Part shown: positions 24,900-30,657 of the stretch, in pieces
Layout: each line of letters starts with the position of its first letter
How positions within the stretch are numbered: the first letter of the stretch is position 1
Source of the DNA: Bacteroidales bacterium
Lineage (GTDB): Bacteria > Bacteroidota > Bacteroidia > Bacteroidales > JAAUTT01
Direction: 5' to 3'
Assembly (NCBI GenBank): GCA_025361285.1
Contig: JANYAP010000183.1
Span: 1-36,105, forward strand
DNA: 36,105 bases
Translations under genes and position numbers: made by a program
Notes under the pieces: generated by a model
What the model saw: the letters and a program-made list of their open reading frames with translations, nothing else
Databases searched by the model: none
Told to the model about the DNA's origin: nothing

Positions 24900-25817
24900 T
24901 TACTTTACTACGAGCAATTTGTATGTAGTGTATTGATAATCATTAAGTATGCGCACATAGTATATTCCATCGACAAAAGATCGTAAATCTATTTTTATAT
25001 CGCTATGCGCCTTATATTCCGACGATAGAACATAACCTTGTGCCGATAATACTTCAACAGTAAAAGGATGTTCATTCTCTGAAGTTATAGTTATGTAATC
25101 GGATGCAGGATTGGGGAAGATTTCAAATTTCTCTTTATCAGTTATCGAATTAACTCCATTGCCTTCGTCTACACTACCCCAATAAAAACATTTGCTTAAG
25201 CTTTTATTATCAGTTATGTAAAGTAAGCCGTTGTTATTGTATGAACATAACAAAGTGCGGATAGTGCTTGGTCCACATAGTGGACGAGGTATGATGCTAG
25301 TTATCAATCCATTAATTGCACCAACGCCTTCAATCCAATCGGCTTCATTAGTAAATCTTATTCTTTTATGTAGCTCATTATTAATAGTAATCGAATCTAT
25401 TGTATCAACAATGCAACTATAATAAGAAATATCAACAGTTTCTTTAATGTTAACACTAAAATCATACAATAACGTTTCAATGTTATAATTTGATTGTTCT
25501 TTAAAGTAAACTTGCTGAGCAGCAATATCTTCGCGAATAAAACCAACAAGGTTCCAGTATTTCGATGATGTATCGGTTTGTGATACCAGTTTTTTGTAAA
25601 CTGTTTCACCTATGGTAGTATCGGTAGATATTTTAAATACTTCAGTAGTTATCGATGTGGTTTCAATTGTATTGCTATCGAGGCACTTTAAAAAACGAAT
25701 TTCAGTTTGTTTAAGCACATTCCATCTATTACCTTCTACCACAAGTGGTTTATAGGTTTGGCTATGAAGGATACCTACAAGAAATACAAACGAAAGTTGA
25801 AGTAAAGTTTTTTTCAT
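24900..25817 (-). CDS. Secreted protein with a T9SS type A sorting domain
   Basis: A 305-residue protein. Signal peptide LLQLSFVFLVGILHSQ is followed by a domain opening with VEGNRWNVLKQ and containing ETVYKKLVSQ, WNLVGFIREDIAAQQVYFKEQ and ETLLYDFSVNIKETVDI. This order (W-x-V, then VYYR-like strand, then LLYDF) is often seen in Bacteroidetes secreted proteins of unknown function. CGPSTIRTLLCSYNNNGLLY (about 208-227) has a likely disulfide. The final 75 residues are a type A sorting domain (FEIFPNPASDYITITSE..IDLRSFVDGIYYVRILN..TTYKLLVVK). It is the most upstream intact T9SS gene of the island, 45 nt before the LamG lipoprotein gene. Confidence 0.8.
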   Translation of the reverse strand: MKKTLLQLSFVFLVGILHSQTYKPLVVEGNRWNVLKQTEIRFLKCLDSNTIETTSITTEVFKISTDTTIGETVYKKLVSQTDTSSKYWNLVGFIREDIAAQQVYFKEQSNYNIETLLYDFSVNIKETVDISYYSCIVDTIDSITINNELHKRIRFTNEADWIEGVGAINGLITSIIPRPLCGPSTIRTLLCSYNNNGLLYITDNKSLSKCFYWGSVDEGNGVNSITDKEKFEIFPNPASDYITITSENEHPFTVEVLSAQGYVLSSEYKAHSDIKIDLRSFVDGIYYVRILNDYQYTTYKLLVVK

Positions 25818-25854
25818 GGATGGTTGGATTTGAATTATGTAAAAAAACTAATGG

Positions 25855-26012
25855 TTAGTATTTTATAATTTTGATGTTTATAGTTGATACAGAAGTTTTT
25901 AACATTACCACGTATATGCCTGAGGCTAACTCCGTAATGTCAATAACCTGATTTTCAGTTACTGACTGCATTTTCTTCCACTCAAAAGGCTTTTAAGTAA
26001 TAACTTTTTCAT
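25855..26012 (-). pseudogene. Internally deleted T9SS gene remnant
   Basis: On the minus strand, ATG at 26012 begins MKKLLLKSLLSGRKCSQ and then stops (TAA), the start of a signal peptide cut off before its hydrophobic core. One frame over, and running to TAA at 25855-25857, is a clean T9SS type A sorting-domain end: KPFEWKKMQSVTENQ, IDITELASGIYVVMLK, then STINIKIIKY. The body of the gene is missing and the two ends are joined out of frame. This is best explained by an internal deletion of a secreted-protein gene. The rest of the 340-nt gap (25818-26157) holds nothing recognisable. Confidence 0.7.
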
Positions 26013-26157
26013 AGTTAGGAATTTAAATTGTTGATAATTAAGTTGTTCATTTTATTATACGAATCGATGAAATTTTAACATGCCACGCTTGATAGGAAAC
26101 ATCCTAAATAAGCAATCTGCAAAGGAATCCGCATTAGGAGTTTATGTTGACCAAAGC

Positions 26158-26820
26158 TTACTTTTTATAAGCAAACTCTGTAATAATCAATTTGTTGGTT
26201 CTTTCAATCTTTATCCAGCCATACTTATTAATCCCTTTGGCAGAAAATTTAAATCCTAAATACTTTGGGGATTTTATATTAACCCATTTACCATAACCGC
26301 CCATCGGCGATTTATTATTATCGTAGAAATACAATTTACGCTCCGAACTCCAATTATTTCGTTTACTTATTGTATCATTCAGGTTTAATGTATCTATGAA
26401 ACATCTCATGCCTGAAGATAGGTCATCGATAACCTTTTCTGCCAATATCTCAAATGAATCGCTAGTTGCAACCTGATAATACTGGAAAAAAGCAGGCATA
26501 CAATCAATAAGTATATTTGGATCATCTGATTGCGGACAGCATTCTGCGTATGGAGTATCGTTTAAATCTCCAACACTAAGAATTAAATCGTATATTCCAT
26601 CGCCATTAATATCAATCGAGTCGGAACCTGCCATTTCCCAACAGCCAATTTGTTTTAAATTCACAGAAAACCCTGGTGAATATACCTTATGAGTATAGCT
26701 TTCATCATAAGCACCAGCTAAAACCAAGTCGGCTGAACTTTTACTGTAGTGGCCAAGCGTTTCTTTAATGCACGAAACAACCACTAAAATTAAAATGCTT
26801 GTAAAAATAATCTTTCGCAT
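26158..26820 (-). CDS. Lipoprotein of unknown function under a putative ECF promoter
   Basis: A 220-residue lipoprotein with a short signal peptide and lipobox ILVVVSC (C17). The mature part contains IDINGDGIYDL (about 72-82), a Ca2+-binding-loop-like D-x-N-x-D-G-x-x-D motif as in FG-GAP and dockerin-type repeats. It also has a cysteine-rich section (ECCPQSDDPNILIDC, with further Cys at about 60 and 140) and a C-terminal beta-rich part (GYGKWVNIKSPKYLGFKFSAKGINKYGWIKIER), where the last stretch resembles the KYGWI..I motif of many Bacteroidetes secreted proteins. The domain family is not recognised. It follows the sigma-factor operon on the same strand and has its own copy of the ECF-like promoter about 95 nt upstream of the ATG. 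Confidence 0.75.
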   Translation of the reverse strand: MRKIIFTSILILVVVSCIKETLGHYSKSSADLVLAGAYDESYTHKVYSPGFSVNLKQIGCWEMAGSDSIDINGDGIYDLILSVGDLNDTPYAECCPQSDDPNILIDCMPAFFQYYQVATSDSFEILAEKVIDDLSSGMRCFIDTLNLNDTISKRNNWSSERKLYFYDNNKSPMGGYGKWVNIKSPKYLGFKFSAKGINKYGWIKIERTNKLIITEFAYKK

Positions 26821-26913
26821 AGTTTTTTATTATTAATTGTAGGTTACAAATTGCTTATAATAAGTCATAAACCTATTCTCACAACTCTATTTAGCTAAAA
26901 ATATGAACCTTTA

Positions 26914-26950
26914 TTTATAAGACGCAGCAATTAAAAAACGTTCCCGAAAA
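26914..26950 (-). promoter_or_regulatory. Putative ECF sigma promoter for the 26820 lipoprotein gene
   Basis: On the minus strand the element reads TTTTCGGGAACGTTTT, 8 nt, TGCGTCTTATAAA. The GGAAC (26944-26940) and CGTC (26924-26921) are separated by 15 nt, fitting -35 and -10 boxes of ECF sigma promoters. Both blocks and their spacing are identical to the copy at 29237-29273 over the sigma gene. Transcription would start near 26914 and reach the lipoprotein ATG after a leader of about 95 nt. Confidence 0.7.
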
Positions 26951-26957
26951 AAACGAA

Positions 26958-27863
26958 TTATTGTAAAAATATATTGAAGCCCGCACCAACACCCATTTTT
27001 TGAAACGACGAATAAGGGTATTTTTTATCGTTAACCAACGAGCGTTGGTAAAATGGAGCAACAAAAAGTCCGAAATTGTGCGTTATCTTGTAGTTAAGTG
27101 ATGGCGCAAAGGCGGCACTTACATCGGTTTTACGAATTACCGACGATGACGGATTATTTGTATTTCCTTGCTTATAGCCTATTAGAAAATCGGTTACAAA
27201 ACCTCCGCTTAGCAAAAGCGAAAGCTTTTTATTAAATACCCAACTATAGCCGAATAATGCATACACATTTAGATAGTTGTAATAATAATCGGACGAAATA
27301 TTATCGGTAACAAACAACGAATCGTATGGTTCGTGGGTATTAGTCTGTATATTAGCCGAATAATAAGTTAGGAGTTCCTGTTGCTTTTCGTGATAACGAG
27401 TAAATCCAGTGCCAACCGAAAGAACAAAATTGCTGTAATTGTAATTCCAAAGTAACGCAAAGCTCTTATTAACAACTGATTGAGAGTTTGTAGCATTGGC
27501 GGTAGTAACGCTACTCTCGTTTCCGTTAATGTAAGGTGCTACACCAAAGCTTATTGAGTTTGGAGTTATGTGCGAAAGAAACGAATGCCCTGTAAGTAAC
27601 GCATTGTTAGTCAAGAAGGATTGCGACGATATTTTCGAAAAAAACCTGTTAAAACTCGATTTCTTTTTTCCAGACGAAACCGCTTTTTCAATTTCCACAA
27701 TTGTATCGGTTACCCTAAGAGTATCGGGTTTTAAATACACTGTATCGTATTCAAAAACAATTACTTCATTTAACGTATCGCGTAACGATGAGGTTTCTTG
27801 AGAAAATAATATAATAGAATATACGGCATAACTAAGTGTAACACAAAGCCTTTTAATATTCAT
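26958..27863 (-). CDS. Outer-membrane beta-barrel-like protein of the sigma operon
   Basis: A 301-residue protein with signal peptide LCVTLSYAVYSIILFSQ. A short periplasmic stretch follows with DTV repeats (EYDTVYLKPDTLRVTDTIVEIEK, about 38-60) and a basic patch (GKKKSSFNRFF). From about 95 onward, alternating strands with aromatic residues (FALLWNYNYSNFVLSVGTGFTRY, YYNYLNVYALFGYSWVF, LSLLLSGGFVTDF, FGLFVAPFYQRSL, GVGAGFNIFLQ) look like an 8-stranded-type barrel of the outer-membrane beta-barrel superfamily. It is the third gene of the sigma/anti-sigma operon, 60 nt after the anti-sigma-like gene. An envelope-stress or surface-sensing role is suggested by that order. Confidence 0.75.
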   Translation of the reverse strand: MNIKRLCVTLSYAVYSIILFSQETSSLRDTLNEVIVFEYDTVYLKPDTLRVTDTIVEIEKAVSSGKKKSSFNRFFSKISSQSFLTNNALLTGHSFLSHITPNSISFGVAPYINGNESSVTTANATNSQSVVNKSFALLWNYNYSNFVLSVGTGFTRYHEKQQELLTYYSANIQTNTHEPYDSLFVTDNISSDYYYNYLNVYALFGYSWVFNKKLSLLLSGGFVTDFLIGYKQGNTNNPSSSVIRKTDVSAAFAPSLNYKITHNFGLFVAPFYQRSLVNDKKYPYSSFQKMGVGAGFNIFLQ

Positions 27864-27923
27864 GTAAATTAAGGTTATCTAATAAACCGTCAAATATATT
27901 AAAACTAAAAACATCTCAGGAAT

Positions 27924-28589
27924 CTATTTTTTTAGTTTCTTCTTAATCACCACCGTATCCTTTAAAACAACGTTGTTTTGCTTAACAAAAATGGTTTTAC
28001 GTACTCGTTTTATTTTTTGCGGTTCGAGGTTTGTAGTTGATAATGAGTCGATTGTGTTGTTGGTTAATTCGCCTTTAACACTAGCTTGCTGTGGAATGGT
28101 ATTGACGGCTTCACTATTATTTTCGAGCTTGGTATGCAAACTTGGCTGCGATGAGCTTATTTTATTTTGAGGTGAATTGTTCTTAGTGTTTTTGTTAACT
28201 ATCTCATTATTAGCAATATTATCGGTTTTTTTATTGTTAATTGCTTTATTGTTTTCGAGCGTAACATTCTGGTTTTCAAACGTATTTGGTATGGAGATTC
28301 TAAGTTTTAAAAATTCTTCGTTTTTGTTCAATATCTCAATCTTACTTTCAAGCAATTGAATTTTAGACGATAATGTATAGTTGGCAATTCCCAGAAAGGC
28401 TGATGAGCCTGCAAAAGCAAGTAATGCGCCCAAATAAAAAACGTTGAAAGTAGCAAAGCTAAATTTCATGAAGTTAGTTTTGCTTAACTTAGCGCTAAGA
28501 GCTTCCCAATCGGCGTTATTAGTTTGAGATTCAAACCTCCCAAACTTTTCGGAGTACAAGTTTTCGATATAATTCTTTTTGTTTTCCAT
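27924..28589 (-). CDS. Single-pass membrane protein, probable anti-sigma factor
   Basis: A 221-residue protein encoded 4 nt after the ECF sigma gene. The N-terminal 40 residues are cytoplasmic and contain FESQTNNADWEALSAKL, a short W-containing helix like those at the N-terminus of Bacteroidetes anti-sigma/regulator proteins. One membrane helix lies at about 45-69 (ATFNVFYLGALLAFAGSSAFLGI). Then come a coiled coil (LSSKIQLLESKIEILNKNEEFL), a long Asn/Lys/Ser-rich spacer (about 100-190) and a basic C-terminal strand set (RVRKTIFVKQNNVVLKDTVVIKKK). There is no classical ZAS or FecR domain. The role is inferred from gene order and topology: sigma binding inside, sensing in the periplasm. Confidence 0.65.
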   Translation of the reverse strand: MENKKNYIENLYSEKFGRFESQTNNADWEALSAKLSKTNFMKFSFATFNVFYLGALLAFAGSSAFLGIANYTLSSKIQLLESKIEILNKNEEFLKLRISIPNTFENQNVTLENNKAINNKKTDNIANNEIVNKNTKNNSPQNKISSSQPSLHTKLENNSEAVNTIPQQASVKGELTNNTIDSLSTTNLEPQKIKRVRKTIFVKQNNVVLKDTVVIKKKLKK

Positions 28590-28593
28590 AAAA

Positions 28594-29217
28594 CTATTGA
28601 CTAAGTTTTTCGAGACAAAATGAGTATAATTCCTTTTGAATCAAACCTCTGGCTCTAAGTAATCGAGTTCGAGATGTAGTGATGTCGATATCTAAAAGTT
28701 GAGCTATTTCGTCGTGCTTCATGTTTTCGATACACGATAGGTTAAATACAACTCGGTAATGTTCGGGTATTCGTTGCAAAGCGCCTAATAGCTCTGATTC
28801 GGACAGGTCGGCCGATAAAACGAATTCGGCGTTATTGTGTTTTAAATCAACGTGTTTATTATCGTTACCTTCCGATTCATTGTAATGATGATTATCTGAA
28901 TAATGAAAGTTTGCTTCGTTAACATCTTCAATACTAATGTGGTTATACTTTTTATTATGCTTGCGTAGGTGCGAAATAGCTGTGTTTACAAAAATTCGCT
29001 TCATCCAACCGTCGAACGAACCTTTTTCGCTGTACTGCCTAATGTTCGAGAAAACTTTTATAAAGCCCTCTTGAACAACGTCTTTTGCAGTTTCGGCATC
29101 GCCAACATAACGCAAACAAACGCCTTTCATTTTGGGAGCATACATTTCGTATAACAACCTCTGCGCAAGTTTGTTGTACTGTCTGCATTCCTTTATTATT
29201 TCATCGAATTTATTCAC
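28594..29217 (-). CDS. ECF-type RNA polymerase sigma factor
   Basis: Directs RNA polymerase to a small regulon. Region 2 (YEMYAPKMKGVCLRYVGDAETAKDVVQEGFIKVF..FDGWMKRIFVNTAISHLRK) and region 4.2 (ALQRIPEHYRVVFNLSCIENMKHDEIAQLLDIDITTSRTRLLRAR) are complete; there is no region 3, as in ECF factors. The linker between them is long (about 50 residues) and holds seven His plus many Asn and Asp. The frame is open back to a TTG at 29250, but that codon lies inside the putative -10 of the gene's own promoter, so the GTG at 29217 (VNKFDEII) is chosen, giving about 207 residues. An anti-sigma-like gene follows after 4 nt. An identical promoter element before 26820 suggests a second target. Confidence 0.9.
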   Translation of the reverse strand: MNKFDEIIKECRQYNKLAQRLLYEMYAPKMKGVCLRYVGDAETAKDVVQEGFIKVFSNIRQYSEKGSFDGWMKRIFVNTAISHLRKHNKKYNHISIEDVNEANFHYSDNHHYNESEGNDNKHVDLKHNNAEFVLSADLSESELLGALQRIPEHYRVVFNLSCIENMKHDEIAQLLDIDITTSRTRLLRARGLIQKELYSFCLEKLSQ

Positions 29218-29236
29218 AAAACAAAATAAGATTTCG

Positions 29237-29273
29237 TTTATAAGACGCAAAGATGAGAAAACGTTCCCGAAAA
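29237..29273 (-). promoter_or_regulatory. Putative autoregulatory ECF promoter of the sigma operon
   Basis: Minus-strand reading: TTTTCGGGAACGTTTT, 8 nt, TGCGTCTTATAAA. GGAAC (29267-29263) and CGTC (29247-29244) are 15 nt apart. The predicted transcript would start near 29236, about 19 nt before the GTG at 29217. The same blocks and spacing occur at 26914-26950. Confidence 0.7.
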
Positions 29274-29451
29274 TTCATCAAAATTTATTCATCAACATTT
29301 TTTATTGCATAAATAGGTGTGCAAATGGTATTTATAAAATAATTGAAAATATTTCACTTTTCTCATCAGGGTATAATAATTTTTTTGTGTGATACTGGTG
29401 AGAACGGTTCAAAAGAACATAAAATTAATAATCATTTAAAAAATCTGTATT

Positions 29452-30585
29452 ATGAAAAATTTACGTATTTATTTCTCTGTATCATTGGTAGTTGTTGCAT
29501 TATTTTCTCAGAGTTGCCAAAAGAATGAAGTAATTGAACAAAAAGCCGACACTGGCATTTTACCTGAGCGTTTTAAGGTTGATATCCCTACTTCGTTGAG
29601 CAGCAACCAGTCGAAAATCAAGTCGGCATCGGTATCAAACGCCGATACTATTAAAGGTAACGAAATTTACAAACACCTTAACTTTTTTATTGCGGTGGGT
29701 GAGGGAGCTAGCGATATTGTCGAAAAAATTATTGGCAGCATAGCTCTTTATCAAATCAATAGGCCAATGGTTATTAGCTATCAAAGCGATGACGATAATC
29801 GGGTTAAAAACCTAGTAGTTAAGGAGAATGTTGAATACAACGGCCGCCAATGGAAATACATGCTTACCATTACCGATGCCGCATCGGAAGGCGAAACTGA
29901 TGGAGGAAAAGGAATGCAAATTCTATGGAATCCTAGTCCCATCGAAGGTATCGCAATTCTGCGTCCGTATAATATCGATAGGGTTAAAAACCTTAGCTCG
30001 CTCGATGCAATATTTCGCATTGAATATTCCGAAGTACCTACAAATGAGTACGATTCGCACATGGTAGTTGAAATAGCCAACCTTCCAATGCCCGATGCTC
30101 GTATCGACCAGTTTGCTTTGCACAGCATGAAAATGTTTGTTGGGAAAAAAGGCGATGTGGTTGATGTTTATGGAAATTCCGATCATCCTAATGCTAAGTT
30201 CTTTACCGAAAGTACTGGTTTCGACTGGGCTTTTACGGCCTCGGGCTTTATTGCCGAAAACATTGGTGTTGCCGAAGTGGGTTTACCTCCATGTACATTA
30301 GATAAAAACGATCGCAAGGTAATTCTCGAAGACTACTCTATAAAAAGTGTTCTCTCAAAGCAAATAAACGACTGGTTTTATGGTGTGTACGGTGTTCATA
30401 TCGATGCAAACGACTTATCGCAATATTTGCAAAATGCCGATGCTCCCGGATATTTTAATAATGGCGGTTTTGTTTCAGCTGGTACTTCGCCAGATGCTAA
30501 GTACAACGCTCTTTCTAACCGAATTAAGTTACTTACACCTTTTAACCCTAAATTAGTAAACGAATTGGCTATTGATTTTAAATAA
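29452..30585 (+). CDS. Lipoprotein of unknown function, divergent from the sigma operon
   Basis: A 377-residue lipoprotein: signal peptide LRIYFSVSLVVVALFSQSC with the acylated Cys at about 22, then a flexible Ser/Lys-rich stretch. A roughly 300-residue mature domain follows with no motif I can name. Visible runs include HLNFFIAVGEGASDIVEKIIGSIALYQ, VEYNGRQWKYMLTITDA, GGKGMQILWNPSPIEGIAILRPY and GFDWAFTASGFIAENIGVAEVGLPP. The mix of amphipathic helices and strands suggests a compact ligand-binding fold. It is transcribed away from the sigma gene with about 200 nt between them, and no ECF-like box was found on its side. A strong intrinsic terminator follows at 30658-30696. Confidence 0.7.
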   Translation: MKNLRIYFSVSLVVVALFSQSCQKNEVIEQKADTGILPERFKVDIPTSLSSNQSKIKSASVSNADTIKGNEIYKHLNFFIAVGEGASDIVEKIIGSIALYQINRPMVISYQSDDDNRVKNLVVKENVEYNGRQWKYMLTITDAASEGETDGGKGMQILWNPSPIEGIAILRPYNIDRVKNLSSLDAIFRIEYSEVPTNEYDSHMVVEIANLPMPDARIDQFALHSMKMFVGKKGDVVDVYGNSDHPNAKFFTESTGFDWAFTASGFIAENIGVAEVGLPPCTLDKNDRKVILEDYSIKSVLSKQINDWFYGVYGVHIDANDLSQYLQNADAPGYFNNGGFVSAGTSPDAKYNALSNRIKLLTPFNPKLVNELAIDFK

Positions 30586-30657
30586 CGATTAAAATGTAAT
30601 AGACTGTAAACCTATATTTTAATTGAGGTTTGAATGGATATTTCGTATGCATTTTAC

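Follow-up and report, generated by a model that had tools for sequence, protein, structure and literature searches.

A putative ECF sigma factor promoter pair and an apparently split Dma/Reo-type anti-sigma factor in a Bacteroidales genome

What reads a DNA element that stands once before the first gene of a short operon and once more just past its last gene? In the 36,105-nt stretch of a Bacteroidales genome analysed here (the window), the minus strand carries genes for an extracytoplasmic function (ECF) sigma factor, for a predicted anti-sigma protein and for a predicted outer-membrane barrel protein, followed by the gene of a predicted lipoprotein (Table 1). The original prediction, made from the sequence alone, held that two identical ECF-type promoter elements, with 15 nt between GGAAC and CGTC, lie on the minus strand over the start of the sigma gene and before the lipoprotein gene just past the operon, and that this sigma recognises both. 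The repeat itself is as described: TTTATAAGACGCA-N8-AAAACGTTCCCGAAAA has two exact matches in the window (copies A and B in Table 1), with the same spacing and with no others at up to 3 mismatches; both read GGGAACGTTTT-N10-CGTCTTATAAA on the minus strand, and the 15-nt distance is correct. With 0 matches in 100 dinucleotide shuffles, none is expected by chance, and a chance origin of the pair is rejected. We think it highly probable that both copies are promoters read by the adjoining ECF sigma, which would thereby control its own operon and a lipoprotein output, gated from the envelope by a split anti-sigma.

Copy A lies where it had been placed, past the last gene of the operon and ahead of the lipoprotein gene, and no terminator-like site was found on the minus strand between the barrel and lipoprotein genes. 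For copy B the description was right in that the element adjoins the sigma gene and imprecise in setting it over the start, as it overlaps the gene only if TTG 29250 is the initiation codon. The likelier start, judged from the sequence and the point at which similarity to relatives sets in, is GTG 29217, which is 26 nt downstream of the -10 CGTC and therefore places copy B upstream of the gene.

These placements suggest a simple circuit. Copy B would drive transcription of sigma, anti-sigma and barrel genes as an operon, resulting in autoregulation, and copy A would drive the lipoprotein gene as output. The inner-membrane anti-sigma would hold the sigma, and its periplasmic tether, by homology to the Dma/Reo anti-sigmas, would be coupled to the outer-membrane barrel, here a separate protein; an envelope signal would then free the sigma and raise expression of both its own operon and the lipoprotein. 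Below, loci and genomes carry L and G numbers, loci with the anti-sigma and barrel on two proteins are called split, and a homologue is called fused if it is a single open reading frame (ORF) of at least 330 amino acids (aa) with a transmembrane (TM) segment, the barrel having been checked in part of them.

A related element of two blocks precedes part of the homologous sigma genes. The pattern AAC-N14-18-GTC has matches in the 120 nt upstream of the sigma gene for 33 among 105 dereplicated homologues (4 of 109 regions were dropped as near-duplicates, after earlier removal of 1 duplicate locus and 1 too near a contig start), against a mean of 8.3 (maximum 16) in base-shuffled regions and 3 on the reverse strand. 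Its commonly seen version is GCAACC...GTCTA; the output of a de novo search for three-letter dyads upstream of these genes was swamped by A/T words. GGGAAC was seen before the sigma gene in just six loci, namely the window, L174, L115, L169, L035 and L170, and the nearest relative found is L174, whose sigma fragment is 64% identical to the window sigma over 106 residues. The sigmas of these six loci and of L036 form one clade of 7 (split_a; support 98/92 in a tree of 103 rows). Rather than being absent before orthologous sigma genes, the element thus precedes the gene in 6 of the 7 clade members. At least 80 loci hold homologues of this sigma, with 78 titled Bacteroidota, 1 'uncultured bacterium' (L070) and 1 Chlorobiota (L035).

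The recognition helix of the sigma differs along with the promoter. R183-T184-R185 is present in 6/6 clade members that have region 4, and R185 is found in 0 of the 96 other sigmas, which carry Q (81), N (14) or K (1) at position 185, K (79), R (16) or Q (1) at position 183, and S (72), T (23) or G (1) at position 184. Ten of these 96 had a -35 recognised by pattern, and all ten were GCAAC. In an alignment, positions 183-185 correspond to R171, S172 and R173 of sigma-E from E. coli (chain numbering offset 3), the helix residues that contact its -35, GGAAC (PMC6713349; for this and all other papers cited, statements follow the portions of the text available to us). The -35 variant and the recognition helix change together, as would be expected if this sigma reads this -35, and the paired change of -35 base and helix residue would make a clean pair for promoter-specificity tests in this sigma group.

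In the genome as a whole (3.21 Mb in 202 contigs, 97.7% complete), the strict motif GGGAACGTTTT-N8..14-CGTCTTA is confined to the two copies in the window. Allowing 3 mismatches at fixed spacing gave 2 further sites (reversed-pattern control, 4), and a looser pattern gave 1 (its control, 2); a larger regulon in this genome was rejected, all three weak extra sites lying inside ORFs (L004 and L126 in long genes, C66 in a 75-aa ORF). Across 393 genomes of the order, GGGAACRTTTTN{8,12}NGTCTW matched in 12, comprising 5/5 with this sigma clade and 7/388 others, the co-occurrence to be looked for in related genomes; one match of the five, that of G160, is intragenic. Among the 7 other matching genomes, 4 matches were intragenic, 1 stood before an apparent FecR-type gene (by eye) and 2 had no near plus-strand gene. 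Four genomes of the same genus had neither the sigma (E <= 1e-35) nor the clade pattern. In L198 (G168), a GGGAAC element lies past another ECF-like sigma gene and 20 bp before an apparent FecR-type anti-sigma gene.

Another ECF sigma of the same genome might read the two promoters: the genome holds 8 matches to the window sigma at E <= 0.001, itself included, and overlap of ECF regulons is possible, as stated for SM6 promoters (PMC9723704). We regard this as unlikely, given that the -35 variant tracks the clade and helix of this sigma and that in other genomes the pattern accompanies this sigma.

The second copy also has counterparts in relatives. The nearest relative, G330 (L175), in which the operon is broken with sigma and barrel on two contigs, has the element before sigma and AGGAACGTTTTTAGGTTTCTGCGTCTT after the barrel gene, before a lipoprotein gene. 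G093 (L169), from another family, has the element before sigma and GGGAACGTTTTAAAAAATGATGGTCTT after the barrel gene, this time before the gene of a PKD protein sorted by the type IX secretion system (T9SS). The copy in G051 is on another contig, 50 bp ahead of the gene for a secreted PKD/SprB-repeat protein with similarity to the G093 target (36% over 287 residues), and the contig of L035 ends within GCGGGAAC, a cut-off copy. Loci L171, L172 and L181, split loci in which the sigma is fused to the anti-sigma, have a variant of their own, TGCAAC...CATCT, at two places, upstream of the sigma and upstream of a gene whose product has a T9SS sorting tail; in 12 loci this pattern gave 12 sites, 11 of them intergenic, while the reverse strand gave 2.

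Agreement between copies A and B extends past the ECF core, among other bases to TTATAAA after the -10 (34 of the 42 bases around the core are identical), as might be expected of operators for some other DNA-binding regulator. That they are operators and not promoters is nevertheless very improbable, since the two blocks lie 15 nt apart, the GCAAC/GTC form stands before other ECF sigma genes, and relatives keep the -35 and -10 and not the flanks. We reject a functionless leftover of duplication or insertion of the operon, the least credible account, for although the 63-nt pair (73% identity) is the longest among the direct repeats listed for 25500-30600, the spacers of A and B differ while both blocks are identical, and the G330 and G093 copies stand at the same places with spacers of their own.

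Conserved placement, the joint change of helix and -35, and co-occurrence across genomes all support the proposal that the adjoining sigma recognises both copies, which very probably holds. Several observations weigh against it. The helix and -35 changes fall on one branch and count as a single event. Clade member L036 has no element within 600 nt before its sigma gene and none after its barrel gene; in G160, the sigma's own promoter departs from the pattern that matched within a gene, and there is no second copy. The reversed pattern matched in 30 genomes, none among the five with the sigma clade, and a lone pattern match therefore means little by itself. Under a uniform loose rule, a second copy was present in 5/11 split and 6/23 fused loci (counting loci that have a site near sigma and 2.6 kb or more of downstream sequence; contig breaks excluded G330 and L035). 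The window lipoprotein has weak relatives only, and the presumed targets differ between genomes. The idea that a second promoter marks only split systems had come from a narrow pattern, in a comparison that entered some loci twice, and was dropped because the wider pattern gives the 5/11 and 6/23 above; with a second copy in split and fused loci alike, having an output promoter beyond the operon seems to be a feature of the broader class.

The anti-sigma of the Dma/Reo type appears to be encoded here as two proteins; the original prediction did not remark on the split partner. On a 462-column profile of 45 fused Dma-like proteins, the anti-sigma half matches columns 1-66 (prob 97.5, E 7e-12) and the barrel half columns 209-456 (prob 99.6, E 2e-24). 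The fused set comprised 69 proteins, 58 of them of 380-580 aa, with 45 in the profile and 38 in a second comparison. Neither half has a Pfam match of its own. The sigma gene adjoins the homologue of the Dma-like N-terminus, and the barrel is encoded by a further gene, with stop codons between the halves in place of the single polypeptide of Dma/Reo. An N-terminal anti-sigma domain is recognised by homology only (66 columns), and the same half provides the TM helix and disordered tether, having a hydrophobic segment from residue 48 and an AlphaFold2 (AF2) predicted local distance difference test score (pLDDT) below 50 from residue 101 on. The barrel half gives a confident barrel in AlphaFold, with Foldseek matches of the OmpA/OmpX/NspA type.

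Relatives show the same split, and the barrel genes of G176 and G040 are found on a different contig, surrounded by other genes, so the division in the window is no sequencing error. Loci L144, L152, L153, L119 and L179 were counted as split, barrels having been found in their genomes, and L116, which is at a contig end and for which no barrel was found in G016, was left out of the split recount. Other arrangements were also seen: in L171, L172, L117, L177 and L181, sigma, anti-sigma domain, TM segment and tether form one protein of ~410-420 aa with a separate barrel gene, and in L122 the 377-aa ORF right after the sigma gene couples an anti-sigma-like N-terminus with an apparent gliding/T9SS-type domain at the C-terminus, in place of a barrel.

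In gut Bacteroidota, anti-sigmas of the Dma/Reo type influence both the release of vesicles and the response to envelope stress (PMC13088901, PMC9308784). Das/Dma of Bacteroides thetaiotaomicron (ECF21) has four parts, an anti-sigma domain, a TM helix, a disordered tether and a barrel, and when dma2 is lost, expression of das2 (log2 4.54) and of neighbouring genes goes up (PMC13088901). The window halves are homologous to fused Dma-like proteins of that layout; unlike Das/Dma, the window system has its barrel on a separate gene and a -35 of GGGAAC, whereas GCAAC is common among the homologues. EcfO-Reo (Phocaeicola vulgatus, Bacteroides fragilis) likewise has a sigma gene and then an anti-sigma spanning from the cytoplasm to an outer-membrane barrel, but Reo is one protein where the window system has two. 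The EcfO sigma gene is strongly induced under envelope attack and NigD lipoproteins are in the regulon; in P. vulgatus, a toxin directed at the envelope induces EcfO-Reo, on which NigD lipoproteins depend (PMC13114119, PMC9308784). EcfO is required for NigD production (PMC13114119), and a motif for EcfO of B. fragilis has reportedly been published (PMC7366714). FecI-FecR-FecA resembles the window system in having a sigma, an anti-sigma in the inner membrane and an outer-membrane barrel that is a protein of its own (PMC11637429), but Pfam scans found no FecR, STN or TonB-dependent receptor domain in the window, which has a small OmpA-like barrel instead. A further likeness is that the ECF promoter motif SM6 of Flavobacterium psychrophilum precedes a sigma/anti-sigma pair and T9SS genes (PMC9723704). 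By these comparisons, the predicted system belongs with EcfO-Reo/Das-Dma, as a variant whose anti-sigma is split and whose -35 specificity is putatively shifted. A literature search, in which the field was surveyed mostly in outline, found no description of a split Dma/Reo form.

The natural split parts the barrel from the anti-sigma, and each half can therefore be deleted, swapped or tested for binding separately. Tentatively, and with the odds somewhat against it, the tether's C-terminus and the N-terminus of the barrel protein, which bear strand-like DTV/DTI motifs, might dock in the periplasm, with undocking freeing the sigma. DT[VI] occurs in the tether of 13/16 split anti-sigmas, 4/69 fused ones and 0/16 short ones with no barrel found for them (Fisher p 1.5e-9, without correction for kinship), and in 16/16 split barrel proteins examined, first at residue 22-95; as background, 28/336 ORFs of 200-600 aa (80 loci) have it within their first 130 residues. 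This distribution fits docking of the two ends; the motif was picked after some split proteins were known, and its counts are therefore post hoc. When read-through chains were modelled in two AlphaFold runs, both motif regions stayed disordered and no link between the halves appeared, an outcome that, with no multimer run or deep paired alignment, is no support and not disproof. If docking occurs, the trans-envelope link would be reversible, and the signal for release of the sigma would be undocking, whether the barrel is absent, mis-assembled or bound to a ligand.

Table 1. Putative promoter copies, operon genes and proposed target in the window
Feature	Coordinates	Strand	Description
Promoter copy B (putative)	29237..29273	minus	GGGAACGTTTT-N10-CGTCTTATAAA, before sigma gene; counterparts before sigma in L174, L115, L169, L035, L170
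Promoter copy A (putative)	26914..26950	minus	12 bp past barrel stop codon, 100 bp ahead of lipoprotein ATG; counterparts in L175, L169
ECF sigma factor, 207 aa, GTG start	28594..29217	minus	Pfam Sigma70_r2 and r4_2; recognition helix R183-T184-R185; in tree and residue table
Anti-sigma half, 221 aa	27924..28589	minus	N-terminal domain, transmembrane helix, disordered tether ending in TIFVKQNNVVLKDTVVIKK
Barrel half, 301 aa	26958..27863	minus	Signal peptide (by eye), EYDTVYLKPDTLRVTDTIVE segment, small OmpA/OmpX/NspA-like beta-barrel
Predicted lipoprotein, 220 aa, proposed target	26158..26820	minus	N-terminus MRKIIFTSILILVVVSC, lipobox by eye

The sigma has the regions 2 and 4 of an ECF factor (Pfam r2, E 1.5e-18; r4_2, E 1.6e-12) and no further domain. 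The lipoprotein proposed as its target has no Pfam match; homologues were weak matches only, in 8 other genomes, and a motif scan of four loci with such homologues, on short flanks, found nothing. Between the lipoprotein gene and the next T9SS gene, an in-frame stretch at 25857-25992 on the minus strand, KPFEWKKMQSVTENQVIDITELASGIYVVMLKTSVSTINIKIIKY, resembles the last part of a T9SS sorting tail, with no gene attached to it. On the other side, a divergent gene beside the sigma gene (29452-30585, plus strand) encodes a 377-aa predicted lipoprotein with no Pfam or NCBIfam match. The anti-sigma and barrel genes (26958-28589, minus strand) share a reading frame, as they do by coordinates in L035, L115 and L171 and not in L036 and L169; this is possibly a trace of an ancestral single gene, or chance.
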